A stretch of DNA of 64,000 bases. It comes from Nitratireductor sp. B36 (lineage in GTDB: Bacteria > Pseudomonadota > Alphaproteobacteria > Rhizobiales > Rhizobiaceae). Below the pieces are notes generated by a model, which saw only the letters and a list, made by a program, of their open reading frames with translations, was not told where the DNA came from and did not search any database. Made by a program: the position numbers and the translations under genes. The stretch lies in assembly GCF_020833685.1 (NCBI RefSeq), contig NZ_JACKZY010000002.1:558001-622000 (forward strand), written 5' to 3'. This document shows, one piece after another, positions 17,030-35,773 of the stretch; the first letter of the stretch is position 1, and each line of letters begins with the position of its first letter.

Positions 17030-17106
17030 GGGCCTGTAGCTCAATTGGTTAGAGCCGGCGGCTCATAACCGCTTGGTTGGGGGTTCGAGTCCCTCCGGGC
17101 CCACCA
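17030..17106 (+). tRNA. tRNA with CAT anticodon, probably tRNA-Ile2 (lysidine-modified)
   Basis: A complete cloverleaf with encoded CCA: acceptor GGGCCTG/CGGGCCC, D-arm GCTC-AATTGGTTA-GAGC, anticodon loop CTCATAA, T-loop GGTTCGAGTCC. The anticodon CAT could be initiator Met, elongator Met or Ile2. The acceptor pairs C4-G69 and C5-G68 are those used by TilS to recognise tRNA-Ile2, and the body differs from the usual rhizobial elongator Met tRNA. Ile2 is therefore favoured. The call of a tRNA gene itself is secure. Confidence 0.9.
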
Positions 17107-17144
17107 TCGACCAGACTTTTGGTGGTGCAGGTCTATCCCGGCTG

Positions 17145-17161
17145 TTTGATCCGGTTTTTTT
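17145..17161 (+). terminator. Weak candidate terminator downstream of the tRNA
   Basis: A short CCGG...CCGG stem is followed by a run of seven T. The stem is only four pairs, so this is weak, but the T-run is clear. Confidence 0.3.
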
Positions 17162-17206
17162 ATCATAACTGATTAAGTTTTTATTAATCCACGGATTCCC
17201 CAAGAA

Positions 17207-20200
17207 TTGGTGTTTCCGGTGGAGAACCTACTACTACGATCTATATTTTTATTCGTACTTTGTCTTTTTCCGGACTTTGCCTTTTCCCAAATCGGCATCG
17301 GTTTCCGTGGAGATGGCAGTTATGTAGGGACGATCGGATCGAACAAGGGATCAGTCGAAGCTTATAAATGTCCGGCCGGAACAGTGCTTCGAGGTCTCCA
17401 CCACGCCGACGTCTCCATGAGCGCAAATGCTTCCAGCGTTCGCGGTATGACAGCACAGGTGGGGCTTTATTGCGCGTCGATATCTGTTCTTCCGAACGGA
17501 ACGGTTGAAACCATCAACACGTCAGCCAATGGTACCCCGGAAGTCTCGGGTTACGGCTATCCCACTCAAGGAACCCAACGGCACGGATATTGTCCGCCTG
17601 GACAGATTGTTCAGAGGCTGGGTGGGTATGACCGGGTCGGGCCTGGGGCTACTATCCCCTGGGCTTCCAGTCTGCGAATGGCGTGTCGTCCTCTTCAACT
17701 CGGTGCATCGGATTGGGTTTCCGTCAATACGGCTGCTACAGCTGGCGTTCAGACCGTTGGGGTGAATGAGGGCAATGCCACGCACACTTTCCGGGGCTGG
17801 TTTTGCAACAATGAGGCCTATCGAGCAGCCTCGGGTATTCATAGGCAGGCTGGAGGGAGGGGCTACGATGGCATCAATGTCTATTGCGGCCAATTGGAGC
17901 AAGCGCGCCACTCGGCGGCTCTGAATTTTTCCGACTTTGCTTGGGATCAAACGATTGGCGGCACAGGCTGGCTGCTCAATTTGACCAAGGATGGCATTCT
18001 TCTCGACAATGGAAGCGGACTTTCGGGAGAAGATGTTGAGCCATATCTCGCTGCTTCCGACAACGATACGGCTGATTACGATTCCAGCAAGGAGGTTTAT
18101 GTTCTGCCGGGATCCGGCTATGGGGCCACGGCCTCACAAAGACCGGCAGGCATTCCTGAAAACTCTTTTGCGGAAACAGGCAGTTGCGCGAGCAACATCC
18201 TAAAGGTCGACCAGGAAGACAGCACCTGTTCTCTCACGGTTACGGGGCGACCCGATCTTTCGATTTCCATCTCAGCGCCGGCGGGTGTCTACCACGCGCC
18301 AGGCGACACGATGGATATGAGTGTGAGTGCCACCAATCTTGGCCCCGGTACTGTCCAAACCTCTGATGGATTCGCCATCACGGTTTCCGTGCCGGCAGGG
18401 TGGACAGCCAGCCCGGTTCCCGGGTGTACGGTCTCAGGGCAAACGGTGTCGTGTGTTATAAACACGCCTCTTTCGCCCGCTCCAGTCCCTGGAGGCAGCG
18501 GCGGAAACATAGGCTTCACAATCCCGCTGGTCGCAAACTCGGATGCCGTTTCAGGAAGCTATCCGCTTGTTGCCTCGCTTGACCGGTCTGTCTCCGACGG
18601 AGACACCGACCCGACGAACGATGATTTTGTTCTGTCAAACGATCAGGCGCAGGGGACTGTGCAGTTCGTCAAATTGCCCAGACTCACGCTTCGCAAGACC
18701 ACCTTGGATGATGTCGGCAGCTTCACCTTCACCGGCAACAATGGGTGGGAAACTCAGACGATCACCACTGTGTCCCAGGGCGTTGCTCAACCGGGGGTCA
18801 CGCAGATCCTGGCAGAGGTCGACGTCCAGACGGTCATTTCAGAGACTTTGCCGCCCAATTGGGTTCTCGACGACGTTGTCTGTTTGGGAATGGGGACAGG
18901 GGGAACAGTGTCGTTTGATGAGAATTCCTTCACACTTTCTCCTGAGGCGGTGGCGGTCGATAGCGAGATCGACTGTGCGGTTATCAATCAGAAGGTTCTG
19001 TTGAATACTTCGAAGAGCTCGGATGTTGGCAACGGTGTCGGCGTCCAGGCGGGGGACACGATCACCTACACGCTGACGACCCAGGTGACCGGAGGGACGA
19101 CCTCTCAGGATCTGGTTTTATCAGACACGTTGGGGGCGGGGCTCGACTTTGACAGTGTCACGGCGCCGGGGGCTTTCGTTGCAGATACTAGCGGCGCGCC
19201 GAACCTGTCATTCACGCTTCCTGCAGGCACAGCAGCGGGAACCTACAGCGTGTCCTATACGGCCACGGTCTCTGATGGTGCTTCGGGATCGGTTTCCAAC
19301 AGCGCTGTGGCCAACATCGGCGACTGCTCTCCCTGTGCGACCACGAACCGGCTGGTGGAACTGAGCACGTCGAAGGCTTCGGATGTGGGCGATGGTGTCG
19401 GCGTCCAGGCGGGGGACACGATCACCTATACGCTGACGACCCAGGTGACGGGGGGAACGACGACACAGGAGCTGGTTCTGACCGACACGCTGGGGGCGGG
19501 GCTCGACTTTGGCAGTGTCACGGCGCCGGGGGCTTTCGTTGCAGATACTAGCGGCGCGCCGAACCTGTCATTCACGCTTCCTGCAGGCACAGCAGCGGGA
19601 ACCTACAGCGTGTCCTATACGGCCACGGTCTCTGATGGTGCTTCGGGATCGGTTTCCAACAGCGCTGTGGCCAACATCGGCGACTGCTCTCCCTGCGCGA
19701 CCACGAACCCGCTTGTTGAACTCAGTACATCGAAGGCTTCGGATGTGGGCGACGGTGTCGGCGTACAGGCGGGGGACACGATCACCTATACGCTGACGAC
19801 CCAGGTGACGGGAGGAACGACGACACAGGAGTTGGTTCTCACCGACACGCTGGGGGCGGGGCTCGATTTTGGCAGTGTCACGGCGCCAGGGGCCTTCGTT
19901 TCAGATACGAGCGGCGCACCCACCCTGACCTTCACCTTGCCCACCGGCACGGCAGCGGGAACCTACAGCGTCTCCTACACAACGACGGTATCAGACAGTG
20001 CGTCGGATTCGGTTTCGAACGCAGCGACTGCTGATATTGGCGAATGCAGCCCCTGTTCCACAAACAATCCTCTTGTGACGACCAGCACCTCGAAAGCTGT
20101 CGATGTGGGCGATGGTGTAGGCGTTCAGGTTGGAGATACGCTCACCTATACGCTAACGGCCGTTATTGCAGCCGGCGTCTCAACACAGGACCTGGTTCTC

Positions 20201-23200
20201 AGTGATGTTCTGGGGCCGGGCCTGGAGTTTGGCAGCGTTACGGCGTCGGGCTCGTTTGTTCCAGACACAGGCAGTGCGCCCAATCTGTCATTCACGCTTC
20301 CCTCAGGAACACCTGCAGGAAGCTATGCCGTTTCCTACACAGCGACAGTGACCGATTTGGCTTCGGGGCAGGTGTCAAACGCGGTGAGTTCAAATTTTGG
20401 GAGCTGCGCGCCCTGCGCTACGACGAACCCTTTGGTGGAACTGAGCACATCGAAGGCTTCGGATGTGGGTGACGGTGTTGGTGTTCAGGCGGGGGACACG
20501 ATCACCTACACGCTGACCACACTCGTGACTGGAGGGACCACAACACAGGATCTGGTGCTGACCGATACGTTGGGACCGGGGCTCGACTTCGGCAGCGTCA
20601 CGACGCCCGGGGCTTTCGTTCCAGATACGGGAAGCGCGCCGAACCTGTCGTTCACGCTTCCTGCCGGCACGGCAGCGGGAACCTATAGCGTGTCCTATAC
20701 GGCGACGGTGTCCGAGAGTGCATCGGGCTCGGTTTCCAACAGTGCAGTGGCCGATGTGGGCGAGTGTTCGCCCTGTGCAACCACGAACCCGCTTGTTGAA
20801 CTTAGTACATCGAAGGCGTCGGATGTGGGTGATGGTGTTGGTGTTCAGGCGGGCGATACGATCACCTACACGCTGACCACTGTGGTGACGGGCGGCGTGA
20901 CGACACAGGATCTGGTGCTGACCGACACGCTGGGGGCGGGGCTCGACTTTGGCAGTGTCACGGCGCCAGGGGCTTTCGTTCCAGATACGAGCGGAGCACC
21001 GAGCCTGTCGTTCACGCTTCCTGCCGGCACGGCAGCGGGAACCTATAGCGTGTCCTACACGGCAACGGTTTCTGACAGTGCATCGGGATCGGTTTCGAAC
21101 AGCGCCGTCGCCAACATCGGCGACTGCTCTCCTTGCGCGACCACGAACCCGCTTGTTGAACTGAGCACATCGAAGGCTTCGGATGTGGGTGACGGTGTCG
21201 GGGTTCAGGCAGGGGATACGCTTACCTACACGCTGACCACTGTGGTGACGGGGGGCGTGACGACGCAGGATTTGGTTGTGACCGACACGCTGGGGGCGGG
21301 GCTCGACTTTGGCAGTGTCACCGCGCCGGGGGCTTTCGTCTCAGATACGGGGAGCGCGCCCAACCTCTCCTTCACCTTGCCTGCTGGCACGGCAGCGGGA
21401 ACCTACAGCGTCTCCTACACAGCGACGGTATCAGACAGTGCATCGGGATGGGTCTCCAACAGTGCGGTGGCCGATGTGGGGGATTGTTCTCCCTGCGCGA
21501 CCACGAACCCGCTGGTGGAATTGAGCACGTCGAAGGCTTCGGATGTGGGTGACGGTGTCGGCGTACAGGCGGGGGACACGATCACCTATACGCTGACCAC
21601 ACTCGTAACCGGAGGGACCACAACACAGGATCTGGTTCTGACCGACACGTTGGGGGCGGGGCTCGACTTTGGCAGTGTCACGGCGCCGGGTTCGTTCGTT
21701 CCGGAGACGGGAAGCGCGCCGAACCTCTCCTTCACCTTGCCTGCCGGCACGGCAGCGGGAACCTATAGCGTGTCCTACACGGCAACGGTTTCTGACAGTG
21801 CTTCGGGACCGGTTTCCAACAGTGCGGTGGCCAACATCGGCGACTGCTCTCCTTGCGCGACCACGAACCCGCTGGTGGAACTGAGCACGTCGAAGGCTTC
21901 GGATGTGGGCAACAGTGTCGGGGTTCAGGCGGGCGACACGATCACCTACACGCTGACCACACTCGTAACCGGAGGGACCACAACACAGGAGCTGGTTCTG
22001 ACCGACACGTTGGGGGCGGGGCTTGACTTTGGCAGTGTCACGGCGCCGGGTTTGTTTGTTCCGGAGACAGGGAGTGCGCCGAGCCTGTCCTTCACCTTGC
22101 CCGCCGGCACGGCAGCGGGAACCTACAGCGTGTCCTACACGGCAACGGTTTCTGACAGTGCTTCGGGATCGGTTTCCAACAGTGCGGTGGCCAACATCGG
22201 CGACTGCTCTCCCTGCGCGACCACGAACCCCTTGGTGGAACTGAGCACATCGAAGGCTTCGGATGTGGGTGACGGTGTCGGCGTACAGGCGGGGGACACG
22301 ATCACCTACACGCTGACGGTCCAGGTGACGGGTGGAACGACGACACAGGATCTGGTTGTGACCGACACGCTGGGGGCGGGGCTCGACTTCGGCAATGTGA
22401 CTGCATTGGGGCCATTCGCAGCCGACACCGGCAGTGCGCCCGAGCTCTCCTTCACACTTCCCGTTGGAACGTCGGAGGGGACCCATAGTGTGTCCTATAC
22501 GGCGACAGTATCGGACAGTGCCACTCTGGAAGTACAAAACAATGCAGTTGCCAACATCGGGGATTGCTCACCCTGCACGACCACAAATCCACTTGTTGAA
22601 CTGAGTACCTCGAAAATCTCGGATGTTGGCAATGGCGTTGGCGTCCAGGCGGGCGACACGATCACCTATACGCTGACCACGGTGGTGACGGGCGGCGTGA
22701 CGACACAGGACCTGGTTGTGACCGACACGCTGGGGGCGGGGCTCGACTTTGGCAGTGTCACGGCGCCGGGGGCTTTCGTTCCAGATACGGGAAGCGCGCC
22801 GAACCTCTCCTTCACCTTGCCTGCAGGCACGGCAGAGGGAACCTACAGCGTGTCCTACACGGCAACGGTTTCTGACAGTGCATCGGGATCGGTTTCGAAC
22901 AGCGCCGTGGCCAACATCGGCGACTGCTCTCCCTGCGCGACCACGAACCCGCTGGTGGAACTGAGCACATCGAAGGCTTCGGATGTGAGTGACGGAGTTG
23001 GTGTTCAGGCGGGCGATATGATCACCTACACGCTGACCACACTCGTAACCGGAGGGACCACAACACAGGATCTGGTTCTGACCGACACGCTGGGGGCGGG
23101 GCTCGACTTTGGCAGCGTCACGGCGCCGGGGGCTTTCGTTCCAGATACGGGAAGCGCGCCGAACCTGTCCTTCACCTTGCCTGCTGGCACGGCAGCGGGA

Positions 23201-26200
23201 ACCTACAGCGTCTCCTACACAGCGACGGTATCAGACAGTGCATCGGGATCGGTCTCCAACAGTGCGGTGGCCAACATCGGCGACTGCTCTCCCTGCGCGA
23301 CCACGAACCCGCTTGTTGAACTGAGCACATCAAAGGCTTCGGATGGGGGTGACGGTGTGGGCGTACAGGCGGGGGACACGATCACCTACACGCTGACCAC
23401 TGTGGTGACGGGTGGCGTGACAACACAGGATCTGGTTGTGACCGACGCGCTGGGGGCGGGGCTCGACTTTGGCAGTGTCACGGCGCCAGGGGCCTTCGTT
23501 TCAGATGCGAGCGGAGCACCCGTCCTGTCCTTCACCTTGCCCACCGGCACGGCAGCGGGCACCTACAGCGTCTCCTACACAGCGACGGTATCGGACAGTG
23601 CGTCGGGATCGGTTTCGAACAGCGTCGTGGCCAATGTGGGCGATTGTTCGCCCTGCATGACCTCCAATCCACTCGTTGAATTGAGCTCATCCAAAACATC
23701 GGATGTAGGGGACGGTGTCGGGGTTCAGGCGGGGGACACGATCACCTATACGCTTACGGCCGAGGTGACGGGAGGAACGACAACACAGGATCTGGTTCTG
23801 ACCGACACGCTTGGGCCGGGGCTCGATTTCAACACTGTAACCGGGCCTGGCCCATTTATTGCCGATGCCGGTTCCGCGCCGGTGCTGTCCTTCAGGCTTC
23901 CCGCGGGATCGGCAGCGGGGACACACAGCGTTTCCTATACGGCGACGGTCTCCGAGAGTGCTACCGGACCCCTGTCCAACGCGGTGGTCGCGAATGTGGG
24001 AGAATGCAAATCCTGTACAACGGCAAATCCGCTGGTCCGGCTTGGTACGTCAAAGACGTCGGATGTGGGCGACGGTGCGTCCGTCGAAATCGGAGATACG
24101 CTGACCTACACATTAACGACGGTGGTTGCAGACGGGAGGACAACGCAGGATCTCGAATTAACCGATACGCTCGGGCCCGGGCTCAAATTCGGCAGTGTGG
24201 TCAGTTCCGGCCTGTTCGAAGCAGAAACAGGTGCAGCACCGGAGCTTTCCTTCAAGCTTCCCGCGGGAACGCCGGCTGGAACTCACAGTATCACCTATAC
24301 GGCTGTCGTTGACGAGGATGCACCGGTGACCTTGTCCAACACAGTGGTTGCCAGCAATGGGGCGTGTGCACCTTGCCGAACGGAAAACCATATTCCTCCG
24401 GATGTGAGTGTTGCAAAATCGCTTGTGACGGAGGGAGGCGTGGTTCCGGGGCTCGCCGAATTGGGAGAGCCCCTTACATTCGAGATCGTGCTGACCAATG
24501 TCGGTAGCGCTGCCATCGACTTTTCCGTGCTCGATGTTCTGGACCCGCATTTGCGGTTTGTGGCCGCCAGCCACGGTGGACGCCACAGCAGCGGTACTGT
24601 CGAGTGGACAGGCTTGACTGTCCCGCAGCGCGAGGGGAGCACCAACGGTCAACTTGTTCTGAGGGTTGATGCCTCTGTGGTCGAACGACTGGCACACCCG
24701 GCGGATACGGTAGTCAACTTTGCCAAAGTCCCCGCTGAAGCGGACCCAGATTGCCCCTCCGAACAATGCGTTGTCCTGCCTCTCCAGTTCCCCGGGCTTA
24801 GCTTGGCCAAAACCGGTGGATTCTCGGATATGGATGGCGACGGTCTGGCTTCACCCGGCGATGTTCTCCTATACGAGTTTGAAGTCACCAATACCGGCAA
24901 GCTTCCGGTCACCGACATTCGGATCGAGGACCATGGCCCTAAGTTCAACGGGCATGCTGCGAATGGCCGCCTGTCTGATGTACAGCCGGCAACGTTAGCG
25001 CTGGAGGTAGGGGAGACGGAGCGCTTTTCAGCCAGCTATCTGCTCACGCAGGCTGATATCAAGAATGGTGCGGGAACGTCCGAGGCGGTTGTGAACACAG
25101 CAATTGCTTATGGCTCAGTTTTGGATGGCGGCGGAGCGGTGTTTTCGCTCGCTTCGAACGAAAGCACGCTGCCACTGACATTACCGGCTGGGGCCGGCAA
25201 CCTTACAATCAGCAAAACTGCGGAAAGAACGACAATCCGGCGGGGTGAGCTGGCGCCATTCACGATCATCGTAACCAACAATAGCGATGGGCCCGTTCGA
25301 GGATTGAAAGTGGAGGATCGGCTTCCGCCGGGGTTTCGCTTTGTTGAAGGTTCTGCACTGGTGGATGAAGCGCCGGCAGCCCCGGTCGTGAATGGCCGCT
25401 TGTTGCGCTTCGATGACATTTCGCTGGCGGCACGCAGTTCCATTGAAATCCGCCTGAGCATGAACGCCCCGGCGTCTATAGGCCCAGGAGTTTACATCAA
25501 CACAGCGGTGCTGACCGATCCCCTCGGGCGCCGGATATCCTCCGAAGCTCAAGCCAGTGTCCGGATAGAAGAGGAGCCGGTTTTCGACTGCGGTGATGTG
25601 ATCGGTAAAGTTTTCGATGACACAAACCGAAACGGGTATCCGGACGATGGTGAACCGGGACTGCCGGGGGTGCGATTGGCCGCAGTAGAAGGGAAGTTGA
25701 TAACAACCGATGCGGCGGGTCGCTTTCATATTCCATGCGCGTCGCTGCCAGATCAGCGATTGGGGACCAACTTCGTTGTCAAGCTCGATGCTCGAACCCT
25801 GCCTTCCGGCTATCGCCTGACGACGGAACATGTCCGGGTGGTTCGTTTGACGGCGGGCAAAATGACGAAAATCAATTTCGGCGCATCGATTCAGCGCCTG
25901 GTGCGGTTTGATCTTCGGAGCGACGCCTTCGTACGAGGGAAAAATACGCTGAAACAGGACTGGCTCTCCGCTGTCGACCAGCTGATTGAGATTCTCGACA
26001 GGGAGCCCTCCGTCCTGCGGGTGAGCTATCTGGATGAAGAAGGCAGCCATACGCTCGCGAGACATCGTCTTGCATGGGTTGAAAAACGTATCACGAACCA
26101 TTGGCGCCGGTGGGGCGGCCGGTACCGTCTGGACATTGAAACCCGTGTTCTCACCGGGAAAGTCCGACCCCCTGGATATTCGGGGTTTGACCTGGACCAG

Positions 26201-26215: not shown

Positions 26216-26237
26216 AGTTCATTGAGGAAGGATAAAT

Positions 26238-26262
26238 GCCCCGCCGGCAAAACCGGCGGGGC
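26238..26262. terminator. Bidirectional terminator between the two large DUF11 genes
   Basis: The perfect arms GCCCCGCCGG and CCGGCGGGGC flank a CAAAA loop. It sits in the 68-base gap between convergent genes. Confidence 0.85.
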
Positions 26263-26283
26263 CATTTTCGAGAGGTGCTCCGA

Positions 26284-29200
26284 CTACTGGAGCTGATTGC
26301 CCCTGTCGCGCGGCCGCAGGAGTTGCGGATTGATGCGCAGGGGACGATCAAGCTGCTGCCGGGGCACCCGGTTTACCGGTGGCGTCACGCGGATCTGCCG
26401 GCAATTCGGGTATTTGCCCGTGGTGCCCGGCGGGCAGCGGCGCTGCACGACCGGACGACAGTTCGGGAAGGTTCCCGTTGTGCCCTGCGGGCAGCGGCGC
26501 TGCACAACCGGGCGGCAGTTGGGGAACGTGCCAGTCGTTCCACGCGGGCAGCGGGGCCGCACGATGGGTGCGCAGTTGGGATAGCGCCCCGTGGTTCCCG
26601 GCGGGCACTGACGCTGCACCTCCGGCTTGCGGCAGGCACCGGCCACCAGACGTGTTCCACGCGGACAGACGCATTGTCCGTCCTGGGTGCGGATCATGCC
26701 CGGAAGAAGCCGGCATTGCTGGCGGATTGGCCGGCAATTGGGCGGCGTGCCCGTCGTGCCGCGCGGGCATTCGCGCTCGACCTGCGGCTTGACGCAACGG
26801 CCGTTTGCCAGGCGCGTTCCGCGTGGGCAGACACAGCGGCCATCGCGCGTGCGGATCTGGCCCGGCAGGAGCCGGCATTGCGGCCGGGGATCTGCCTGCG
26901 GCTTCGGATCGGGCTCGCGCGGCGGTGTTGGCCGCGGCGTGGGCAGCGGAACCGGAGCGGTCTGCGTGCCGACGCACTGGCCATTGCGGAAGGTGGTGCC
27001 TTCCGGACAGACACAGCGCCCGTCATTGTTGAGAACGAGACCCGGCGAACATTGCTGGTCCTCATCCTCATCCGCCAGAACCGTGAAGTCATGGCAGTCA
27101 TAGGCACGGCCATCTCCAGCACCATCCGGCGCACCTGAGAGCGAGGGCGCGGTGCGCACATCCGCTTCACGGTCGATCACCGCAGCGCAGTTGCGTCCCG
27201 ATGCACCATTGCCCACTGCGTTGGCGAGACCGCCATCTTCCGGCAGCTCGACAACCACCTCATGCGTGCGGCTTTCGCCACTGGCAAGGGTGAGGTCGGC
27301 TTCGCAGGCGAAGGGAAGCTCGGACGGCTCGGGCGAACAGCCGAAGGGCGGATTTACCGAGACGATCCGGGCCGGAACGCCGCCAAACCCTTCGACCCGA
27401 AGCGCATCGCCGATGCGAACCGGACCGGAGATCGATGACGGACCTTCGTTGCGGATGGTGATCTGGAACGTGCAGGGCTGGCCAAGCAGGCACTCTGCAT
27501 CGCCGGCCTTCTCGACCGTGATCTGCGTGCCGCCCTGAGCACAGGCCTCGCCGATGGGATAGACGATGTCGTCTCCCGGAGCCGGGCCGAAGGAACCGCG
27601 TGCGCAGTTCTCGAACCGCTCATTGGGTGAGACATTGACCGTCACATCGAAGTGCCGCGCGGTCCCGGGTGTCATGACAGCGCCGGGGATCTCACAGGTG
27701 AGATTTGCCGCAGGCACCGCGCTGCACGACCATTCCGGGCCGTCAGGCGTGACAGTCTGGATATTGACCGGTGCACCGCTGCCGATGATCTTGGCGGCGT
27801 CGTTGACGCGAACCGGACCGACGGGTGCTGCCGTTCCGGCATTGCTGACCGTGATCCGGCAGGCCACACCTTCTGCGAGCGACACGGTGGGCTCACAGGT
27901 CTTCTGGATGCGCATTTGCGGCTGGCCGCCCGGGATGCCCGGTATGGTCGCCGTTGCACAGGCCTCGTTGTTGGCGAGATTGGTTTCGCCTTCAAGCGCG
28001 GTCACCTTCGCACAGTTCTCGACCTCGCTTGTCGGATAGTCGCCAACAATCGTGGTCACGAGAATGTCCGTCGATGCGCCCGGCACAAGGTTCAGGCCCG
28101 GATGATCGCACTGGAACGTGTTGCCGGCGAGCGGCGCGCACGACCAGGGCGGTGAGGGGCTGAAGGATGCCGAAGCGACATCGCCGGCCGGGAACGTGTC
28201 CACGAAGCTGACGGGACCGTTGATCGGCGTGGCACCGGCATTGAGGATGGTCACGACATAGGTGCAAAGACCATCCGGCGTGCAGACCGTGGGTTCTGCG
28301 CGCTTGCGCACGGCGATATCCGGAATGTCGTTCTCCGGCGGCGTGCAGGCCGGATCGCCCGGCAGGCAGATCGCGATTGTGGCGCAGGCCTTGTCGTTGG
28401 TCGGATCGCCAAACGGATCCTTGCCGCTGGCCGTGTAGTCATATTCGGCGCAGTTGCGGATCGCGCTCCAGCTCCATGCCGGCCCCGGCTGGAAACCGAG
28501 TTTCAGCTCCACGAATTCGCCCGGATTGAGGGTCGTTTCGGGGTGCTCGCACGACATGGGGCTCATCATCGGCACGCAGGTCCATGGCGCATTTGGCCCT
28601 GAGACCACCGTTGCATTGCCGGGCGTCGTCACCTCATCCAGTACGATCTTGCCGGTGTAAGGAGCGTCACCCGCATTGGAGACGCGAATGGTGAAATCGC
28701 ATGAACCGTCGATCTCGCATTCGGCCTCATCGGCGCGCTTTTCGACCTTGATGTCGGGCTTGCCCTCATCGTCGGGCGGGCATTCGAGGTCTTCGGGGAT
28801 TTCAATGTCGACCACCTGTGAACAGCATAGCCCAACGCCCTCGGCCGGACCCGCATAGGTCTCGATGCCGGTGACGAGCAGATGAACCGTATCGCCAGGC
28901 AGCGCGCCGGTGATTTCCCATTCCAGCGTCCCGCCGCCGGCCGGAACGGCCTGGCTCGGCGGATCGATGATGATGCCGGGCGTGGTGGAGGTCACGGTGA
29001 CGACATTGCCTGCCATCTCCGGGCCGACATCCATGCGGTAGATATAGGCGCCACCGCCGGGAAGGCAGTCCAGCTCACCGGTCTCGACCGAGAAACAGGC
29101 CTCTTCCGGCCCGTCGCCGGGCGGCGGCGGCGGCGGATCGCAATCCGTTACATCGATGGTGATGGTGGTCGGGTCGCCCGTCTTCCAGTCGCCATCGTCC

Positions 29201-29949
29201 GGCAGGGCGGGATCGTGCGACGGAATGGTGGCGACAAGCCCGCCGGTTGCCGTGCGGATCACGGCCACGTTGGCCTGATTGTCGACATTGGTTGCGGCAG
29301 GGAACGCCGCCTGGTCGATCTTTGCCTTGATGGTGATGTCGATGGCGCGCTCAGTCAGGCTACCGTCGCCGTCGAGATCGGCGGCGGAAAGGTGGAAGTC
29401 CGACTGGGTGAGCGTGTCGTTTAGGGTTGCGGTCGTGCTGACCACATGGGGTGGAACGGCTCCACCGCCGACACCGATGATGTCGCCGCTGAACGTGGCG
29501 TCGACAATCGACAGATTGGCGGGAAGTTGATCGGTAAACTCGAAGGTCACATTGGTGAGAAACGCGTCGAGGCCCGGGTGGGCGATCATATCAGGTGTGC
29601 CGCGCACGCCGAGGCGCAGGCGGTATTCCACATAATCGCAATTGAGCTGTGCTCCGCGCTTTTCAAGGAAAGGCGTCAGATCAGGCTCGACTTCGGGCAC
29701 TTCCGGTTCAAGTTCAATGCGTGGGCCTTCGGCGTCGCCCGGCGTTTCGAGAACCTCAAGCTCCTCGATCGTCCGGTCCTGTGCTCTGGCCTGATTGATG
29801 CCGGAAAGCGGTATGAGCGCGGTGGAGAGCGCCATGCCCGCCACCAGCAGCCAGCGCGGCGAGCGCGCTTTTTCTGCAAGGGGTTTCATGATCGTCTCCA
29901 TGACGTTGTTGACCGTGGTCCGGTCGGTGGGAAAAGTGAACATGATCAT
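26284..29949 (-). CDS. Secreted cysteine-rich DUF11 protein
   Basis: From the ATG at 29949 (behind GAGGAGGGAGAG) the protein has about 1221 residues; ATG at 29943 or 29907 is also possible. A signal peptide (WLLVAGMALSTALIPLSG, ending near ARAQ) precedes an N-terminal beta-rich region. A domain ending GLCCSQVVDIEIP follows, and then four DUF11-like domains that each carry several Cys. The last ~240 residues are Cys-rich repeats of two kinds: LLPGxIRTxDGxCVCPRGTRL and CPxGTTGxxPNC, with a Pro-rich linker between. Disulfides point to a location outside the cytoplasm. It is the second gene of an operon with the propeller protein and is separated from it by 10 bases. Function unknown; surface structure is inferred. 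Confidence 0.85.
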   Translation of the reverse strand: MIMFTFPTDRTTVNNVMETIMKPLAEKARSPRWLLVAGMALSTALIPLSGINQARAQDRTIEELEVLETPGDAEGPRIELEPEVPEVEPDLTPFLEKRGAQLNCDYVEYRLRLGVRGTPDMIAHPGLDAFLTNVTFEFTDQLPANLSIVDATFSGDIIGVGGGAVPPHVVSTTATLNDTLTQSDFHLSAADLDGDGSLTERAIDITIKAKIDQAAFPAATNVDNQANVAVIRTATGGLVATIPSHDPALPDDGDWKTGDPTTITIDVTDCDPPPPPPGDGPEEACFSVETGELDCLPGGGAYIYRMDVGPEMAGNVVTVTSTTPGIIIDPPSQAVPAGGGTLEWEITGALPGDTVHLLVTGIETYAGPAEGVGLCCSQVVDIEIPEDLECPPDDEGKPDIKVEKRADEAECEIDGSCDFTIRVSNAGDAPYTGKIVLDEVTTPGNATVVSGPNAPWTCVPMMSPMSCEHPETTLNPGEFVELKLGFQPGPAWSWSAIRNCAEYDYTASGKDPFGDPTNDKACATIAICLPGDPACTPPENDIPDIAVRKRAEPTVCTPDGLCTYVVTILNAGATPINGPVSFVDTFPAGDVASASFSPSPPWSCAPLAGNTFQCDHPGLNLVPGASTDILVTTIVGDYPTSEVENCAKVTALEGETNLANNEACATATIPGIPGGQPQMRIQKTCEPTVSLAEGVACRITVSNAGTAAPVGPVRVNDAAKIIGSGAPVNIQTVTPDGPEWSCSAVPAANLTCEIPGAVMTPGTARHFDVTVNVSPNERFENCARGSFGPAPGDDIVYPIGEACAQGGTQITVEKAGDAECLLGQPCTFQITIRNEGPSSISGPVRIGDALRVEGFGGVPARIVSVNPPFGCSPEPSELPFACEADLTLASGESRTHEVVVELPEDGGLANAVGNGASGRNCAAVIDREADVRTAPSLSGAPDGAGDGRAYDCHDFTVLADEDEDQQCSPGLVLNNDGRCVCPEGTTFRNGQCVGTQTAPVPLPTPRPTPPREPDPKPQADPRPQCRLLPGQIRTRDGRCVCPRGTRLANGRCVKPQVERECPRGTTGTPPNCRPIRQQCRLLPGMIRTQDGQCVCPRGTRLVAGACRKPEVQRQCPPGTTGRYPNCAPIVRPRCPRGTTGTFPNCRPVVQRRCPQGTTGTFPNCRPVVQRRCPPGTTGKYPNCRQIRVTPPVNRVPRQQLDRPLRINPQLLRPRDRGNQLQ

Positions 29950-29959
29950 CTCTCCCTCC

Positions 29960-31951
29960 TCACGGCGCACAGGATTCAAGCGGCGTTTCAAGCGGCAACG
30001 TCACCTTGCAACAGGGGAAGTAGCCACCCGCCTCGGCGTCGGACTGCTTATAGAAGCACAGGCCGAGATCGACGGTTTCGCCAGGGATGTGGCCGTTGAT
30101 GCCGAGAGTGAACGGCGTGGCCAGGCTGGGGACCGTCTGCTTGGACGGGGAAACGCCGACGCCGGGCGTCAGCGATTTCGCGGAAAGCGAATCGCCACCG
30201 ATGCCGGCGCGGTCATGGATATAGAGATCGGCTTCAAGCCCCGCGGGCGTACAGAAATACGCTGCAGTCTCCAGCTCGATACAGGGCGGGAGATCGTTGG
30301 GCGGCGGGAAGCCGGGCGGCCAGCCGGGGACGGGAATGTCGCCCGGATAGGGGATAGGCTCGTAGTAGCCTGCGCGGCCCTCACAGGGACGCCAGACCTC
30401 CACGTCGCCGACATGCCCCTTGACCTCGGGGTCTTCGAAGAAACCGTCGTAATCGGCAAACCACGAGCCGAAGGGCGGTTCGTTTTTTGGCCGCACGAGC
30501 GTGCTTCTCGTAAGCTGTACGCCATGAACGGCAAGCGGCCCGCCTTCGATGAGCTGGTCTTCAAGGGCGGGGTTGTCGCGCAGCCTGTCGCCGGTTTTGA
30601 CCAGCGTGGCAGCGCAGGCATTGCGATTGAAGAAGCCTTCGGCGTCATAGCCATATTGCAGATCGATGCCGCCGGCTCCCTGTCGGTATGGTTCGGGAAA
30701 ACCGACTGCATATTCCTGCGGTGCCGGCACCCAGATGCTTTCGGTTTCGGGATCGTCGGGGCTTTCACGCCAGTAGCGCAGCACCGACGCCTCGCCGCTG
30801 TCGGCGAAGCTTGAGTAGTCATAGCGGTTTTCGATCTCGCCCCGCTGGGCAAGGTACATGAAGCCGCGCGTGTCGAAGGCGATGTCGGTGACCGGAAGGT
30901 CTTCGTCCGCTTCCACCGTCAGCTCCCAGCGCGGGTCGCCGGCGAAGGTGCCGTCGCGGGCGATGCCCACGGACCAGATTTCCGCTTCCTCACCGACTGC
31001 GTAGTAGAGGCGTCCGCCATGCATGGCGAGGCCATGGACGCGACGCTCTTCCTGCGTGTAGCCCCAGCTTTTGGGCTCTTCCGCGTCGAAAGCAGCACCC
31101 TGTATATCCATCACGGCGCCATCGTCGCCCACCGGATCGAGCCCGCGTGCCGGCCTGCCATCGACACCATGATCGAACGTGTCGATGAGATTGCCGTCGA
31201 TGTCGATGCGGTGAATGAGACCGCTGTCTAGATCGGAAGCGAAGAACTGGCGGTGTGACCGGTCAAAGGCGATGTTGCCGATGCCGGGTCCGCTGTTGGT
31301 GTCGATATTGGCAAACAGGGTCACGGCACCGGTGATACCGTCGATTTTCCAGATCGAACCGGGGCCGCCGCCATTCTTCTCGCCGAATTGCCCATCCATG
31401 AAGCGTGCGCCGGCTTCGCCGCGGCGCTGCCGTTCGGGCCGCCCGTCCTCGTCTTCGTCTTCCGTGACGATCTGAAGGCCGTGCAGGGACGTGGCCGCCG
31501 CATAGAGGTTCGGCACGATGGCTGTGGTCTCTTCGCGCTTGCCGTCATCATAGGCAAGGCCGAACACCTGGCCGATTTCGGAGGCCGGCACTTCGAAGGG
31601 CGGTGGCGTAAAGACCACCTGCCCGCTGGGTGGGGCGCCGAGCCAGGTCATGTCGAAGATGCGCAGCGAGGCGCGCTCGGTGTCGATGAAGGTTTCGTCG
31701 ACCGGGTCGACGCCGGGCAGGAGACCTTCCTCGAAACCGGGGATGAGCGTGCCGGGAAAACCGGTCACGGCCATGAAACCCGGCTGGATGATCGCGTTTT
31801 CCTGCGCGCTCGCTGGCGCATGTGTTGAAAAGCCCGCCATGATTGCGAGCGCTATGGCGGCGGTGCTTTCAAGAAAGCGTTTGGCGATTCTGCCAGAACG
31901 CGCATGTGCGTTTTCTTCGCACCGTGCCGGGAACTGCCGGTTATGCCCCAT
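29960..31951 (-). CDS. Secreted beta-propeller protein with C-terminal CC domain
   Basis: The ATG at 31951 with a GGGAGG ribosome-binding site gives 663 residues. A longer frame to 32377 would cross the promoter region and has no signal sequence at its N-terminus. A signal peptide (FLESTAAIALAIMAGFSTHAPASAQ) is followed by a propeller-like region with repeats such as GSIWKIDGITGAVTLFAN, HRIDIDGNLIDTF and VTDIAFDTRGFMYLAQRG. These are reminiscent of SMP-30/NHL-type or TolB-like blades. The last ~90 residues form a domain with FPCCKVTLPLE that matches the GLCCSQVVDIEIP domain of the next gene. Co-transcription and the shared domain suggest that the two proteins assemble or act together. Function unknown. 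Confidence 0.8.
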   Translation of the reverse strand: MGHNRQFPARCEENAHARSGRIAKRFLESTAAIALAIMAGFSTHAPASAQENAIIQPGFMAVTGFPGTLIPGFEEGLLPGVDPVDETFIDTERASLRIFDMTWLGAPPSGQVVFTPPPFEVPASEIGQVFGLAYDDGKREETTAIVPNLYAAATSLHGLQIVTEDEDEDGRPERQRRGEAGARFMDGQFGEKNGGGPGSIWKIDGITGAVTLFANIDTNSGPGIGNIAFDRSHRQFFASDLDSGLIHRIDIDGNLIDTFDHGVDGRPARGLDPVGDDGAVMDIQGAAFDAEEPKSWGYTQEERRVHGLAMHGGRLYYAVGEEAEIWSVGIARDGTFAGDPRWELTVEADEDLPVTDIAFDTRGFMYLAQRGEIENRYDYSSFADSGEASVLRYWRESPDDPETESIWVPAPQEYAVGFPEPYRQGAGGIDLQYGYDAEGFFNRNACAATLVKTGDRLRDNPALEDQLIEGGPLAVHGVQLTRSTLVRPKNEPPFGSWFADYDGFFEDPEVKGHVGDVEVWRPCEGRAGYYEPIPYPGDIPVPGWPPGFPPPNDLPPCIELETAAYFCTPAGLEADLYIHDRAGIGGDSLSAKSLTPGVGVSPSKQTVPSLATPFTLGINGHIPGETVDLGLCFYKQSDAEAGGYFPCCKVTLPLETPLESCAP

Positions 31952-32375
31952 AACGTGCCTCCCGAAGCCGTTTCGGAAGGTTGCCGGATGGGCATCTTTC
32001 TCGAGCCCTGTTCCCCTTGTTCCGGTGTATCCCCCCGAAGCGAGGTTCATTTCAACCCCGTCATGGGAGAGCCTACGCCTCGGCTTACGCAAGGTCAACA
32101 AAACCGCCCCAGCCATGCGCCGCGGCGGCTTCAACGACCGTTTGCAGTCGATATGCCGTGTCATCAGAACACTCCTTTCCGGGTGCGCACCATGCGTACC
32201 CTGCAGGGTTTGTCTGACGAGGCTGTGAAAAGGTTCACACTGAAGAGCGCCGTAAAGCCGATAGAGGGAGGCAATTCTGTTTCCACCGAACCGCAAATGG
32301 ACTAGCTTTTCAGAAACTGGGGGAAGCGATGAACCGAAACGCACCGTCGCGCAACACACTGCCGAAGAGCCAGGC
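31952..32375. promoter_or_regulatory. Divergent control region between the propeller operon and the ECF sigma gene
   Basis: This 424-base region must hold the promoters of both the secreted-protein operon and the sigma operon. It contains one perfect inverted repeat, TGTGAA-AAGG-TTCACA, at 32224-32239. No clear ECF-type GGAAC/CGTC promoter pair at normal spacing was found by eye in either direction. Confidence 0.5.
32224..32239. promoter_or_regulatory. Candidate operator palindrome upstream of the ECF sigma gene
   Basis: The perfect palindrome TGTGAA-AAGG-TTCACA lies about 137 bases upstream of the sigma start and 273 bases upstream of the propeller gene. The shape suits a dimeric repressor or a CRP-type regulator. 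No regulator in the window is clearly matched to it. Confidence 0.4.
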
Positions 32376-32945
32376 ATGAGTGGTGCGGATCAGACATCCG
32401 ATGCTGCACTCGTGGCCAGAACGGCGCGCGGCGATAGGGCGGCGCTCCGGCTCTTGTTCATGCGGCATCACACGCGGGTGTTCCGTTTCGTGATGCGCCA
32501 GACGGGATCGGAAACCATGGCGGACGAGATTGCGAATGAAGTGTTTCTGGAGGTGTGGCGCCAGGCGCCGCGCTTCGAGGCGCGCTCTCAGGTCTCCACC
32601 TGGCTGCTTGGCATCGCCCGTTTCAAGGCGCTTTCGGCCTTGCGCAAGCGTTGGGAAAGCACGCTGGATGACGGGCAGGCGGAGGCAATTGAAGACAGCG
32701 CCGACACGCCCGAGGTCACCACAATGAAGGATGACAAGGCGGCGGCGCTGCGCTCATTCGTCAACGCGCTGTCCGAGGAGCATCGCACCGTGGTGGATCT
32801 CGCCTATTATCACGGCAAGTCGGTGACCGAGATCGGCGAAATCCTTTCCGTCCCCGTCGCCACCGTCAAAACCAGAATGTTTTACGCCCGCAAGAAGCTT
32901 GGAGAAGCCCTGCAGGCGGCAGGATATGATCGAGGCTGGCCATGA
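32376..32945 (+). CDS. ECF RNA polymerase sigma factor
   Basis: This 189-residue group-4 sigma factor has region 2 (RVFRFVMRQTGSETMADEIANEVFLEVWR, residues ~33-62), a short linker, and region 4 (EEHRTVVDLAYYHGKSVTEIGEILSVPVATVKTRMFYARKKL, ~130-172). The stop overlaps the start of the anti-sigma gene (ATGA), the classical arrangement of a sigma/anti-sigma pair. It should direct transcription of its own operon and probably the divergent secreted-protein operon. ATG 32376 was chosen because the conserved region follows at the normal distance. Confidence 0.94.
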   Translation: MSGADQTSDAALVARTARGDRAALRLLFMRHHTRVFRFVMRQTGSETMADEIANEVFLEVWRQAPRFEARSQVSTWLLGIARFKALSALRKRWESTLDDGQAEAIEDSADTPEVTTMKDDKAAALRSFVNALSEEHRTVVDLAYYHGKSVTEIGEILSVPVATVKTRMFYARKKLGEALQAAGYDRGWP

Positions 32946-33598
32946 GCGAGAACGCACAATCAAACCGCCGCGACCGGCTTGAGGCGCTGTTGCCCTTCTT
33001 TCTGAACGGCACGCTTTCGGGCGCGGAACTGCGCGAGGTCGAGGAATGGCTCGCTTCCGACCCGCAGGCCATGGCCTCGTTGGCTGAAGCTGAGGGTGAA
33101 TATTCGGCAACGATTGCCGACAATGAGGCGATCCGTCCGCCGGACGATGCGTTGACCCGTTTTTCCAGAGCGTTGGCCGAAGAAGCAGGGCCTGAAAGGG
33201 CCGCGAAATCCTCGCTGCGTGAAAGACTGGCCGGTTTTCTGCCTTCGCTGCCGGTGCAGGCTGCGTGGGTGGCCGCCGGGCTTGCGCTCGCCATTCTTGT
33301 GGGCCAGACGGTCTGGCTCAATCTTTCGCAGACCGAGCAATATTCCGTGGCGGGTGCGGATCGTGAGGATGCACCCTTCGCCTTCGTGACGTTTGCGGCG
33401 GATGCCTCCATGGCCGATGTCTCGGCACTATTGGAGGAAAGCGGTGCCGAGATCGCCGCCGGACCGTTGCCGGGTGGGCTCTACCGTGTTCTTGTGCCCG
33501 CAGAGACGGCGGAGCAGTACGACGCAATTGTTGCCGGGCTCGAAAAGGCTGAATTCGTGGAAACCGTCGTCATCGGACGCAGACCCGGCGATGACTAG
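32942..33598 (+). CDS. Membrane-anchored anti-sigma factor
   Basis: This 218-residue protein has an N-terminal anti-sigma-like helical domain without zinc ligands (RLEALLPFFLNGTLSGAELREVEEWLASDP, residues ~12-41). One transmembrane helix lies at ~105-127 (VQAAWVAAGLALAILVGQTVW), followed by a C-terminal domain of ~75 residues, predicted periplasmic. That domain has an FVTF strand, a helix (ADVSALLEES), GLYRVLVP, and a second helix (YDAIVAGLEKAEFV). The pattern resembles the propeptide-like region of the protease next door. It overlaps the sigma gene by four bases and the protease by eight. It should hold the sigma factor inactive until a periplasmic signal arrives. Confidence 0.85.
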   Translation: MSENAQSNRRDRLEALLPFFLNGTLSGAELREVEEWLASDPQAMASLAEAEGEYSATIADNEAIRPPDDALTRFSRALAEEAGPERAAKSSLRERLAGFLPSLPVQAAWVAAGLALAILVGQTVWLNLSQTEQYSVAGADREDAPFAFVTFAADASMADVSALLEESGAEIAAGPLPGGLYRVLVPAETAEQYDAIVAGLEKAEFVETVVIGRRPGDD

Positions 33599-34991
33599 GT
33601 TGGTTTCGCGCATGCTGGCGGCTATCGCCATCACAGCCCAACTGGCAATGGCCGCGCACGCTCAGACCACCGCACCAGCCGAGGCTGGGGGCGGTGAAAC
33701 GCAGGCTCGCGCAGCCTCCGGCGAACGGCGCGTGGTTTATCTGCCGCAGATGCTGGCGGAGCTTTTTGGTCCGGGGACGGGCGAGGCTGCACTGGCGCAG
33801 CCCGCGGCATCCGGCGACGCGCCTGAGACAGATGGCAATGCTTCAGGCGGCGGGGCTGGCCAGACCGTTCCTCCTCCCACAACGGCGGGAGCGGGCGCCA
33901 ATGCCCGGCCTGTCGCGCCGCAACGCGCCATCTCCGGGGCTTTTGTGCCGGACGAGGTGCTTGTCACTCTTGACGGCGATGCGGATGTGGCCGCCGCCGT
34001 GGCCGCACAGTTCGGCCTGGAGCTGCGTTCGGCCCGTGGATCGGCTTTGCTCGGGCGCACCGTTGCCCGGTTCGGCATCCCCGACGTGCGTCCGGTGGCC
34101 TTTGTGCTTGCACAGCTCGAGGGTGACGGCCGGCTGTCAGATCGTGTGCCGAACCACGTGTTTCAGCTTCAGCAGGCGGCAGGCGTCGTCAATTATGCGT
34201 TCGAACGGATCGCACTCGATGCCGGTGCGGCGAGCGGCGAGAATGTGAGCGTGGCCGTGATAGATACGGCGCTGGATGAGGCGCATCCGGCCCTTGTCGA
34301 CCGTGTGGCACGCGTGTTTGACGCGCTCCCCGACATGGCGGTGAAAGACCGGGAGCATGGCACGTCCATCTCTGGGCTGATTGCTGGCGATGGGCCGTTT
34401 CGCGGCATGGCGCCCGGCGTGCGGCTCCTCCATGCACGGGCTTTCGAGGGCGGTATCTCCAGCACGAATGTGCTTCTGGCCGCACTCGACTGGGCGGTGG
34501 AAGAGGGGGCGCAAATCGTGAATATGAGCTTTGTCGGGCCGGAGAACCCGCTTTTCTCGTCCGCCTGCCGCAATGCGATGGCGCGGGGTGTCGTGCTTGT
34601 TGCTGCGGCCGGCAATAACGGACCGGGCGCGCCTTTCGGCTATCCTGCGGCCTATGATGGCGTGATCGCCGTGACGGCAACGGATGTGCATGACCGGGTG
34701 ATGGGAAAGGCCAATCGCGGTCGCTATATCGATCTTTCAGCACCCGGCGTGAACGTGGTGGCGCCAATTCCCGGCGGCATGGATGTGGTTACCGGCACAT
34801 CTTTTGCCGCTGCAATCGTCTCAGGTGCGATTGCCAATCTGATCCATGCCGGCGAGGACGCCGAACCAGAGACGCTTTCGCAACTGCTGCGGACGACTGC
34901 GGTGGATCTGGGCCGACCTGGACGGGATGATGATTTCGGCGACGGACTTCTGAACACACGGGCGGCAATGGAAGGACGGACTGCCAATTAG
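33591..34991 (+). CDS. Secreted S8-family (subtilisin-like) serine protease
   Basis: The ATG at 33591 gives 466 residues with a signal peptide (ending near AAHAQ, residue ~25), a Pro/Ala-rich linker to ~115, and an N-terminal prodomain (~118-190). The S8 catalytic domain carries the triad D225 (VAVIDTALDE), H256 (EHGTSISGLIAG) and S404 (TGTSFAAAIVSG), with the oxyanion Asn342 in AAGNNGP. All residues needed for activity are present. It is translated from the sigma/anti-sigma operon with an 8-base overlap. This suggests a role either in processing the exported proteins or in releasing the anti-sigma factor; neither is shown. Its stop overlaps the convergent btuD stop by four bases. Confidence 0.92.
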   Translation: MTRLVSRMLAAIAITAQLAMAAHAQTTAPAEAGGGETQARAASGERRVVYLPQMLAELFGPGTGEAALAQPAASGDAPETDGNASGGGAGQTVPPPTTAGAGANARPVAPQRAISGAFVPDEVLVTLDGDADVAAAVAAQFGLELRSARGSALLGRTVARFGIPDVRPVAFVLAQLEGDGRLSDRVPNHVFQLQQAAGVVNYAFERIALDAGAASGENVSVAVIDTALDEAHPALVDRVARVFDALPDMAVKDREHGTSISGLIAGDGPFRGMAPGVRLLHARAFEGGISSTNVLLAALDWAVEEGAQIVNMSFVGPENPLFSSACRNAMARGVVLVAAAGNNGPGAPFGYPAAYDGVIAVTATDVHDRVMGKANRGRYIDLSAPGVNVVAPIPGGMDVVTGTSFAAAIVSGAIANLIHAGEDAEPETLSQLLRTTAVDLGRPGRDDDFGDGLLNTRAAMEGRTAN

Positions 34992-35773
34992 CCGCCTGTG
35001 GAAGCCTTCCTGAGACCTACAGGCGCGATGACCAGGCCCTGATCGTCCTGGGCACGATGGGCTGTCACGCCGTAAATTATCGCAAGGTTTTCATCCGAGA
35101 GCACGGTTTCCGGCGTTCCAAGCGCCGCCAGCTTTCCTTCGTTGAGAAGCATGACCTGGTCGCACCATCGGGCGGCCAGTGTGAGATCGTGGAGCGAAAC
35201 CAGAACGGTTCTTCCTTCGGCGGCCAGCCGTTTCAGCGATTGCATCAGCATGATCTGGTGCGCTGCATCCAGGCCCGAGGCTGGTTCATCGGCCATGAGA
35301 AGCGGTGTTTCCTGCACGATTGCACGCGCCATCAGAACGCGAGCCTGCTCGCCGCCCGACAGCTCCTTTGCGACCCGGTCGGCAAGCGGTGCAATGTCTG
35401 CCATTGCCATGGCGCGGGCGATTGCGGATTCGTCCCGGGCGTTCGGACGCTGACCGAAGGCTCGCCATGGCAGGCGGCCAAGGGCCACCAGATCGCGCAC
35501 GGACAGACGCCAGCCTATGGTTCTCTGCTGCGGCAGATAGGCGATGAGGCGGGCGCGTTGGGCTGGGCCGATCGCCGCGAGATCGTGTTCGCCGAGCTGC
35601 ATGGCGCCCGCGGCGGCTATGTGCCCGTTGAGCGCGCGCATGAGCGTGGATTTACCGGCGCCATTCGGCCCCAGTAGACCGATCACCTGTCCGGGTTCAA
35701 TATCGAAGCTGATGGCATCAAGGACCTGCCTCTTTCCAAGTACTACGCTCAGATTTTTGACTTGGAGGTTCAT
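34988..35773 (-). CDS. btuD: Cobalamin/iron-complex ABC transporter ATP-binding protein
   Basis: This is a 261-residue ABC ATPase of the FecE/BtuD/HmuV group. Walker A (GPNGAGKST), Q-loop (YLPQQR), signature (LSGGEQAR), Walker B (LLMADEP) and the H-loop His (VSLHDLTLA) are intact. It is the last gene of the riboswitch-controlled operon receptor-binding protein-permease-ATPase, so cobalamin is the likely substrate. ATG 35773 overlaps the permease stop (ATGA). Gene symbol is by context. Confidence 0.88.
   Translation of the reverse strand: MNLQVKNLSVVLGKRQVLDAISFDIEPGQVIGLLGPNGAGKSTLMRALNGHIAAAGAMQLGEHDLAAIGPAQRARLIAYLPQQRTIGWRLSVRDLVALGRLPWRAFGQRPNARDESAIARAMAMADIAPLADRVAKELSGGEQARVLMARAIVQETPLLMADEPASGLDAAHQIMLMQSLKRLAAEGRTVLVSLHDLTLAARWCDQVMLLNEGKLAALGTPETVLSDENLAIIYGVTAHRAQDDQGLVIAPVGLRKASTGG

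Follow-up and report, generated by a model that had tools for sequence, protein, structure and literature searches.

A conserved ECF sigma factor, anti-sigma factor and subtilase operon of Nitratireductor with a promoter type common to exported-protein genes and a probable prodomain-like sensor domain

The stretch of DNA analysed here (the window) comprises 64,000 nucleotides of a 4.2-Mb Nitratireductor genome (G000, contig C2, positions 558001-622000). It carries an operon for an extracytoplasmic function (ECF) sigma factor, a membrane anti-sigma factor and an exported S8 subtilase, back to back with an operon for a propeller-like protein and a cysteine-rich DUF7929/DUF11 protein. By computation, these five genes form a unit whose parts co-occur in other genomes, both arms have a common promoter type, and from this promoter a regulon is predicted. 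What is new is the periplasmic domain of the anti-sigma factor. This domain is likely similar to subtilisin prodomains, and in profile alignment it matches that of the neighbouring protease itself; the profile and structure comparisons stop short of proof. We propose that the system is a self-amplifying envelope-signalling switch in which the protease would act on the anti-sigma factor via this domain, a reading to which we give slightly better than an even chance.

In the best segment, the window propeller protein shares 99% of its residues with its counterpart in Nitratireductor aquibiodomus NL21 and 97% with the one in Nitratireductor sp. pb3; the window is from a Nitratireductor near N. 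aquibiodomus. The sigma gene (32376..32945, + strand; 189 residues) overlaps the anti-sigma gene (32942..33598, +) by 4 bp, and the anti-sigma gene overlaps the S8 gene (33591..34991, +), all three being read rightward. An earlier note, made from the letters and their open reading frames (ORFs), had placed the S8 start at TTG 33393. This codon lies within the anti-sigma gene, and the most likely start is ATG 33591, which leaves an overlap of 8 bp. The propeller-like gene (29960..32164, - strand; 734 residues) and the DUF7929/DUF11 gene (26284..29949, -), with its start corrected to ATG 29949, are read leftward. The overlapping operon described in the note was borne out by ORF and domain analysis, with an ECF sigma factor, an anti-sigma factor with one transmembrane helix and an S8 subtilase with its catalytic triad, as was its divergence from the propeller-like gene and, behind it, the cysteine-rich gene. 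The propeller start given there, 32377, is probably wrong. Such an ORF would cross both divergent promoters, so this start is too early; an ATG preceded by a Shine-Dalgarno (SD) sequence is found at 32164, 47 nt past the sigma-type promoter. The leader is open in the frame of this ATG in 72 of 74 relative loci, the other two frames in 2 and 21 of the 74.

To which extent the genes stay together was examined at several taxonomic levels. The named propeller loci are the best 80 of 131 relatives, mostly from Mesorhizobium, Aminobacter and Nitratireductor with many closely related Mesorhizobium, and cover about 6 kb of upstream DNA, less at contig ends. The DUF7929 gene adjoins the propeller gene in all 80. 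Within the family (121 genomes), an anti-sigma match at E 1e-13 or better is present in 11 genomes, each of which has a propeller match at E 1e-100 or better. Three more genomes contain just the propeller, and the other 107 contain neither (Fisher p 2.9e-13, without control for phylogeny). In one of these three, G086, the contig ends within the sigma gene; when all matches are counted, G082 has a partial anti-sigma match and no propeller. In 7 of the 11 genomes with both, the halves stand side by side in divergent orientation. They are detached, yet both kept, in G059 (about 37 kb apart), G067 (about 160 kb), G038 (about 175 kb) and G073 (different contigs).

At the level of the order (297 genomes), anti-sigma matches at E 1e-20 and propeller matches at E 1e-200 gave 20 genomes with both, 2 with the propeller only and 61 with the anti-sigma factor only. 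Co-occurrence is weaker under loose thresholds (48 genomes with both, 53 with the anti-sigma factor alone and 41 with the propeller alone), and the anti-sigma profile matched in 101 of the 297 genomes at E 1e-5. Of 30 order-level loci, 29 have an S8 gene near that of the anti-sigma factor, as do all 8 class-level loci, the window's own copy being counted in each set. Beyond the order few genomes have the anti-sigma factor (8 of 240 at E 1e-10, the window's genome counted). P0005 gave no match in plasmids. The expectation that the genes stay together in other genomes, once checked, thus held for the unit of sigma, anti-sigma, S8, propeller and DUF7929/DUF11 genes, the two halves of which have a common promoter even when apart; it failed for the six genes that include the giant gene discussed below.

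The promoter type found on both arms is TGAACC-N16-CGAC. In the window, motif conservation in relatives predicts a sigma-dependent promoter of the sigma operon at 32330..32355 (+; TGAACC-N16-CAAC) and one of the propeller operon at 32212..32237 (-; TGAACC-N16-AGAC). Exactly two matches to TGAACC-N17-RAC are present in the window, both between the divergent arms (0.86 expected), and TGAACC-N16-CGAC with one mismatch has 8 matches (5.4 expected). Since 17 of 100 shuffles reach two or more, the count in the window means little by itself, and the weight lies on the comparison across genomes. On the propeller side, TGAACC-N16-[CA][GA]AC occurs in 79 of the 80 named loci at a near-constant distance; a sigma gene was found nearby in just 10 of these 80. 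On the sigma side, TGAACC-N15..17-C[GA][AT]C was found within 200 nt in 26 of the 28 order-level loci with upstream DNA and in 5 of 8 class-level loci. The order-level divergent regions, which largely come from the same genomes as the 30 order-level loci, have the motif in 11 of 11 cases on the propeller side (CGTC accepted as -10) and in 16 of 17 on the sigma side. It also precedes the detached propeller copies in the family, and one family has a further copy before the separate DUF gene at 3 of its 6 loci. The motif was not found before the propeller homologues L060 and L061, whose genomes have no anti-sigma match, nor before the weaker homologue L058, whose genome, G068, has a distant anti-sigma factor. 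From the motif before the sigma gene, the operon is predicted to be autoregulated.

A genome-wide search with the strict pattern TGAACCTT-N14-CGAC yielded 70 sites in 12 sigma-positive genomes, compared with 7 for the reversed pattern. Twenty control genomes, picked for having no anti-sigma match (selection was by anti-sigma and not by sigma search), gave 25 sites, 6 of them in G068 and 19 in the other 19 genomes. Sixteen of the 70 sites are the sigma and propeller promoters. From the other 54 we fetched 40, a non-random set hand-picked from the matched letters, and in 19 of these 40 an ORF with an SD sequence before it begins downstream at promoter distance and has a signal-like N-terminus by a crude hydrophobicity rule. 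An exported-type ORF followed 217 of 20000 random sites (1.1%) and 5 of the 25 control sites, all five in G068; the count for the other 19 genomes was 0 of 19. Nine of the predicted targets were run against Pfam. BA14K-like proteins are targets in five genomes, with the Pfam check made for two; the window's own genome is one of the five, with its site at C2:509438. A DsbA/ScsC-like thiol protein is a target in three genomes, the Pfam check covering one, and a patatin was also seen. Further targets are small exported proteins, several of which contain cysteines; the five of the nine Pfam queries that matched no family are of this type. The link from the sigma factor to these predicted targets is well supported by the motif comparisons. 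Some sites look different. In G066, two motif sites about 14 kb apart on contig C80 (L147 and L148) are identical from the -10 element onward and have no SD-preceded ORF within 260 nt; they may give non-coding or very short products. Similar motif sites in both Nitratireductor genomes (L121 and L125) likewise have no SD-preceded ORF within 260 nt downstream.

The sigma factor contains only regions 2 and 4 (Pfam Sigma70_r2 at residues 27-93, Sigma70_r4_2 at 124-175) and matches NCBIfam NF009168 (PRK12515) with 282.8 bits (cut-off 236). For the window anti-sigma factor the NCBIfam matches are below cut-off; zf-HC2 matches at E up to 10 were obtained in 16 of 23 anti-sigma relatives, those displayed being below cut-off. 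Its AlphaFold model, together with the orthologue alignments A1 and A4, indicates a helical N-terminus as cytoplasmic anti-sigma domain, a transmembrane helix at 105-129 and a periplasmic domain, which fits the layout of membrane anti-sigma factors of the regulated intramembrane proteolysis kind. The subtilase (PF00082, 7.6e-41) has a signal-like N-terminus, and its catalytic residues were aligned as Asp at about 34263, His at about 34356 and Ser at about 34800. D, H and N are present in 18 of 18 aligned relatives and S in 16, the other two having a gap. With an E limit of 1, PF22148 (Fervidolysin_NPro-like) matched 12 of 18 S8 relatives (lowest E 6.6e-7) but not the window S8 protein itself; by these relatives and the alignment, the N-terminal prodomain would lie approximately at 33945..34170 (+). 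The S8 protein of G065 (L056:1-1789) has an N-terminal array of CPxG..C repeats that resembles the C-terminal tail of the window DUF7929 protein.

The prodomain-like domain comprises anti-sigma residues 146-211 (33377..33574, +), modelled as beta-alpha-beta-beta-alpha-beta with predicted local distance difference test (pLDDT) values of 81-93 for the block; in the model the chain ends 7 residues past the last strand. Foldseek against the PDB ranked pro-subtilisin E first (E 0.014, probability 1.00), and the propeptides 1scj_B, 1spb_P and 2z58_B also reached probability 1.00. When 46 anti-sigma periplasmic domains were compared with 41 S8 prodomains in a curated cut, hhalign gave Prob 75.8, P 2.3e-5 and a score of 30.6. 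None of 150 column shuffles exceeded 17.6, and control windows (S8 away from the prodomain, sigma factor, anti-sigma N-terminus, propeller) scored at most 13.6. PF22148 itself was matched at the same position in 3 of 23 anti-sigma factors with 17.7-20.3 bits (E 7.4e-4, 2.0e-3 and 4.7e-3).

A number of results count against the proposed reading. The unrelated NapD also reached Foldseek probability 1.00 and no match reaches E 0.001; VIA-align gave higher Z scores for Lrp (8.5) and NapD (8.3) than for the propeptides (7.0-7.6), which stand level with or behind other ferredoxin-like folds. As modelled, the fold by itself does not discriminate, being a ferredoxin-like fold common to many unrelated families. 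In sequence comparison, three prodomain-overlapping windows of an automatic full-length S8 alignment scored only 14.7, 20.4 and 20.9 (Prob 12 at most), profiles of 12 anti-sigma and 12 S8 prodomain sequences were near noise (Prob 1.7, P 0.03), and a smaller, cruder comparison of alignment A4 with A3 gave Prob 6 and P 0.006. The three PF22148 matches are below the gathering score of 21, and Pfam found none in the window anti-sigma factor. Moreover, one anti-sigma member matched TetR_C_31 at E 8.6e-4, which looks like chance. Because a match in a single member can reach this value, the weight of the Pfam result rests on the agreement of three members; the TetR_C_31 match and the lower-scoring prodomain windows together somewhat weaken the evidence for a prodomain. 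A sequence search of the PDB with the anti-sigma profile gave nothing useful. Beyond the domain, 41 order-level genomes have both genes at a propeller threshold of E 1e-100, 40 of the 81 genomes with a good anti-sigma match have no close propeller and 23 have the propeller only; many genomes thus retain the regulator without a close propeller. The promoter also has exceptions, namely L334, L283, L294, three class-level loci and the propeller in L330, and L190 has a variant. On balance, the comparisons lend moderate support to the view that the anti-sigma periplasmic domain is related to, or a mimic of, the prodomain of the neighbouring subtilase, which is likely, though not proven.

Subtilases bind their own prodomains tightly and cut behind them. 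The interpretation we favour is therefore that the protease would recognise the anti-sigma factor through its prodomain-like domain. In the resting state, the anti-sigma factor would keep the ECF sigma factor at the membrane. Once the exported, matured protease appears in free, active form, it would recognise the domain and make the site-1 cut in the anti-sigma factor; intramembrane proteolysis would follow and release the sigma factor. The latter would then transcribe its own operon, the propeller/DUF11 operon and the scattered genes for small exported proteins (BA14K-like, ScsC/DsbA-like, cysteine-containing). If the protease does cut the anti-sigma factor, the signal would be the level of free protease. 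The idea that the protease processes the anti-sigma factor, raised in the earlier note, has gained a concrete basis in this domain; the action itself we infer, as we do binding, cleavage, the direction of control and the signal. Going further, the anti-sigma factor may have captured a copy of a subtilase prodomain as its sensor, which a dedicated subtilase would read as a prodomain. We hold this more tentatively, at somewhat less than even chances. If it is true, what the switch senses would be free protease activity outside the cytoplasm, or the titration of that activity by cysteine-rich exported substrates, and the switch would run a conserved exported-protein regulon across the order. It would also be a simple case of sensor evolution, in which the inhibitor domain of a protease moved onto an anti-sigma factor.

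Control could also run the other way, with the anti-sigma factor as a membrane-tethered, prodomain-like inhibitor of the S8 protease and the sigma factor freed by another route of the DegS/RseP type. Free-standing prodomain homologues (I9 family) are known as subtilisin inhibitors, the end of the window anti-sigma factor 7 residues after the last strand is what an inhibitory tail might look like, and the S8 gene stays beside the anti-sigma gene. The present data do not separate inhibitor from substrate. By itself, however, inhibition leaves the place of the protease in the regulatory operon at nearly every examined locus unexplained, and we consider it unlikely. The same grade applies to the view that the subtilase is an effector only, which matures the propeller and DUF11 proteins, the anti-sigma domain being an unrelated ferredoxin-like sensor. 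The fold is indeed common, and the CPxG..C repeats on the G065 subtilase, similar to those of the DUF11 protein, hint that both act in one place. Yet 40 of the 81 order-level anti-sigma genomes have no propeller at E 1e-100, although S8 adjoins in 29 of the 30 best loci, and the profile match to the neighbour's own prodomain exceeds all controls.

Quite improbable is an ordinary switch of the ECF26 kind with the protease as target only. Its model is RpoE6 of S. meliloti, an ECF26 sigma factor whose gene is divergent from that of the serine protease SMa0142, which it activates, in a layout described as widely conserved in ECF26 (PMC6180224). The promoter there is GGAATA/GT, whereas it is TGAACC/CGAC here, which does not fit ECF26 membership; likewise, the protease gene is divergent there and the third gene of the operon here. 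The surface-building system of six genes that the earlier note had envisaged, which adjacency and DUF11 repeats in the window would favour, has next to no chance of being right, given that its 3002-codon member is not conserved nearby, has no exact promoter match and sits in an insertion-like position by a tRNA-Met.

This giant gene (17207..26215, +) encodes DUF11/RrgB-type isopeptide-domain repeats. It is convergent with the DUF7929/DUF11 gene, as noted earlier, though this agreement is one of position only: the protein falls outside the conserved five-gene unit and has no match in 20 relative regions, and in the named loci, where only about 2 kb past the DUF gene are covered, it was matched in 1 of 80. 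The window's only two exact promoter matches are those between the divergent arms. The gene starts 100 bp after a tRNA-Met (17030-26215). In N. aquimarinus (L043) the end of the DUF gene and a tRNA-Met are separated by about 1 kb, and in the window the 9-kb gene intervenes; this looks like a lineage-specific insertion in the window or a loss in N. aquimarinus. By poor conservation, promoter and position the giant gene was ruled out as a member.

The name of the propeller-like protein should be read with caution: it refers to weak profile matches of the DFPase type. Of six PDB matches within E 1, five are named DFPase and the sixth EnT1.3 C, and the strongest has E 0.0015 across some 90 residues; the structure model is poor (pLDDT 44). 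The translated leader of the protein (31951-32164, -) runs for 71 residues before an internal ATG with its own SD sequence at 31951, and about 100 residues precede the signal-like stretch. The signal peptides that the earlier note gave for every structural product were judged by eye, and in the propeller protein the hydrophobic stretch comes after about 100 residues. The partner protein contains 55 cysteines, DUF7929 (PF25551, 5.8e-80), DUF11 (PF01345) and C-terminal CPxG..C repeats. The two sequences form one reading frame in 5 of 8 order-level loci checked, taken from 11 order-level loci with both sequences. The propeller C-terminus resembles the DUF7929 protein at about residues 299-399, with some 30% identity over about 100 residues. 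The C-terminus of the DUF7929 proteins (26284-26600, -) is a tail rich in proline and arginine that often contains an 'INP' element and ends with Q in 9 of 10 proteins (window and nine relatives); possibly it is a sorting or processing signal. On the other side of the unit, a gene for an ABC transporter ATPase (34988-35809, -) lies tail to tail with the S8 gene, overlapping it by 4 bp.

The analysis yields a promoter motif for this ECF system, predicts its regulon and proposes which protease its sensor is paired with. It also ties several exported families whose role is unknown (DUF7929/DUF11, propeller-like, BA14K-like and small cysteine-containing proteins) to a single regulator. In the open-licence literature, mainly titles and abstracts, no description of a sigma/anti-sigma/subtilase operon of this kind or of an anti-sigma factor with a subtilisin prodomain was found among the matches listed, and the accessible parts of PMC3420878, PMC3426412, PMC7406223, PMC3989490 and PMC10880074 contain no such system. 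The E. coli RpoE (sigma-E)/RseA/DegS/RseP system is similar in having a membrane anti-sigma factor with a periplasmic domain. RseA is destroyed by a site-1 protease and then by an intramembrane protease, and this stepwise proteolysis frees an autoregulated ECF sigma factor (PMC8103513); for the system described here we propose a counterpart. DegS is an inner-membrane protease of the HtrA family with a PDZ sensor (PMC8103513), whereas the protease here is an exported subtilase encoded within the operon, the anti-sigma domain resembles a subtilase prodomain and the promoter differs.

Among rhizobia, RpoE6-EcfR6/SMa0142 of S. meliloti is likewise an ECF/anti-sigma pair beside a serine protease gene, and the C-terminal domains of EcfR proteins have been likened to RsiW (PMC6180224). 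It differs in that the protease gene stands outside the operon, and the accessible part of that source describes no propeller or DUF11 partner. DUF11 (TIGR01451) repeats are found in the DUF7929 protein and in its giant neighbour too; unlike other DUF11 proteins, the conserved partner combines DUF7929, 55 cysteines and tail repeats of the CPxG..C type, and is paired and sometimes fused with the propeller. Subtilisin prodomains (I9/PF22148), finally, have the same order of secondary structure elements and the same fold as the anti-sigma domain, with weak profile similarity to it. They act in cis as part of the protease, whereas the prodomain-like domain described here would be presented in trans, on the anti-sigma factor.

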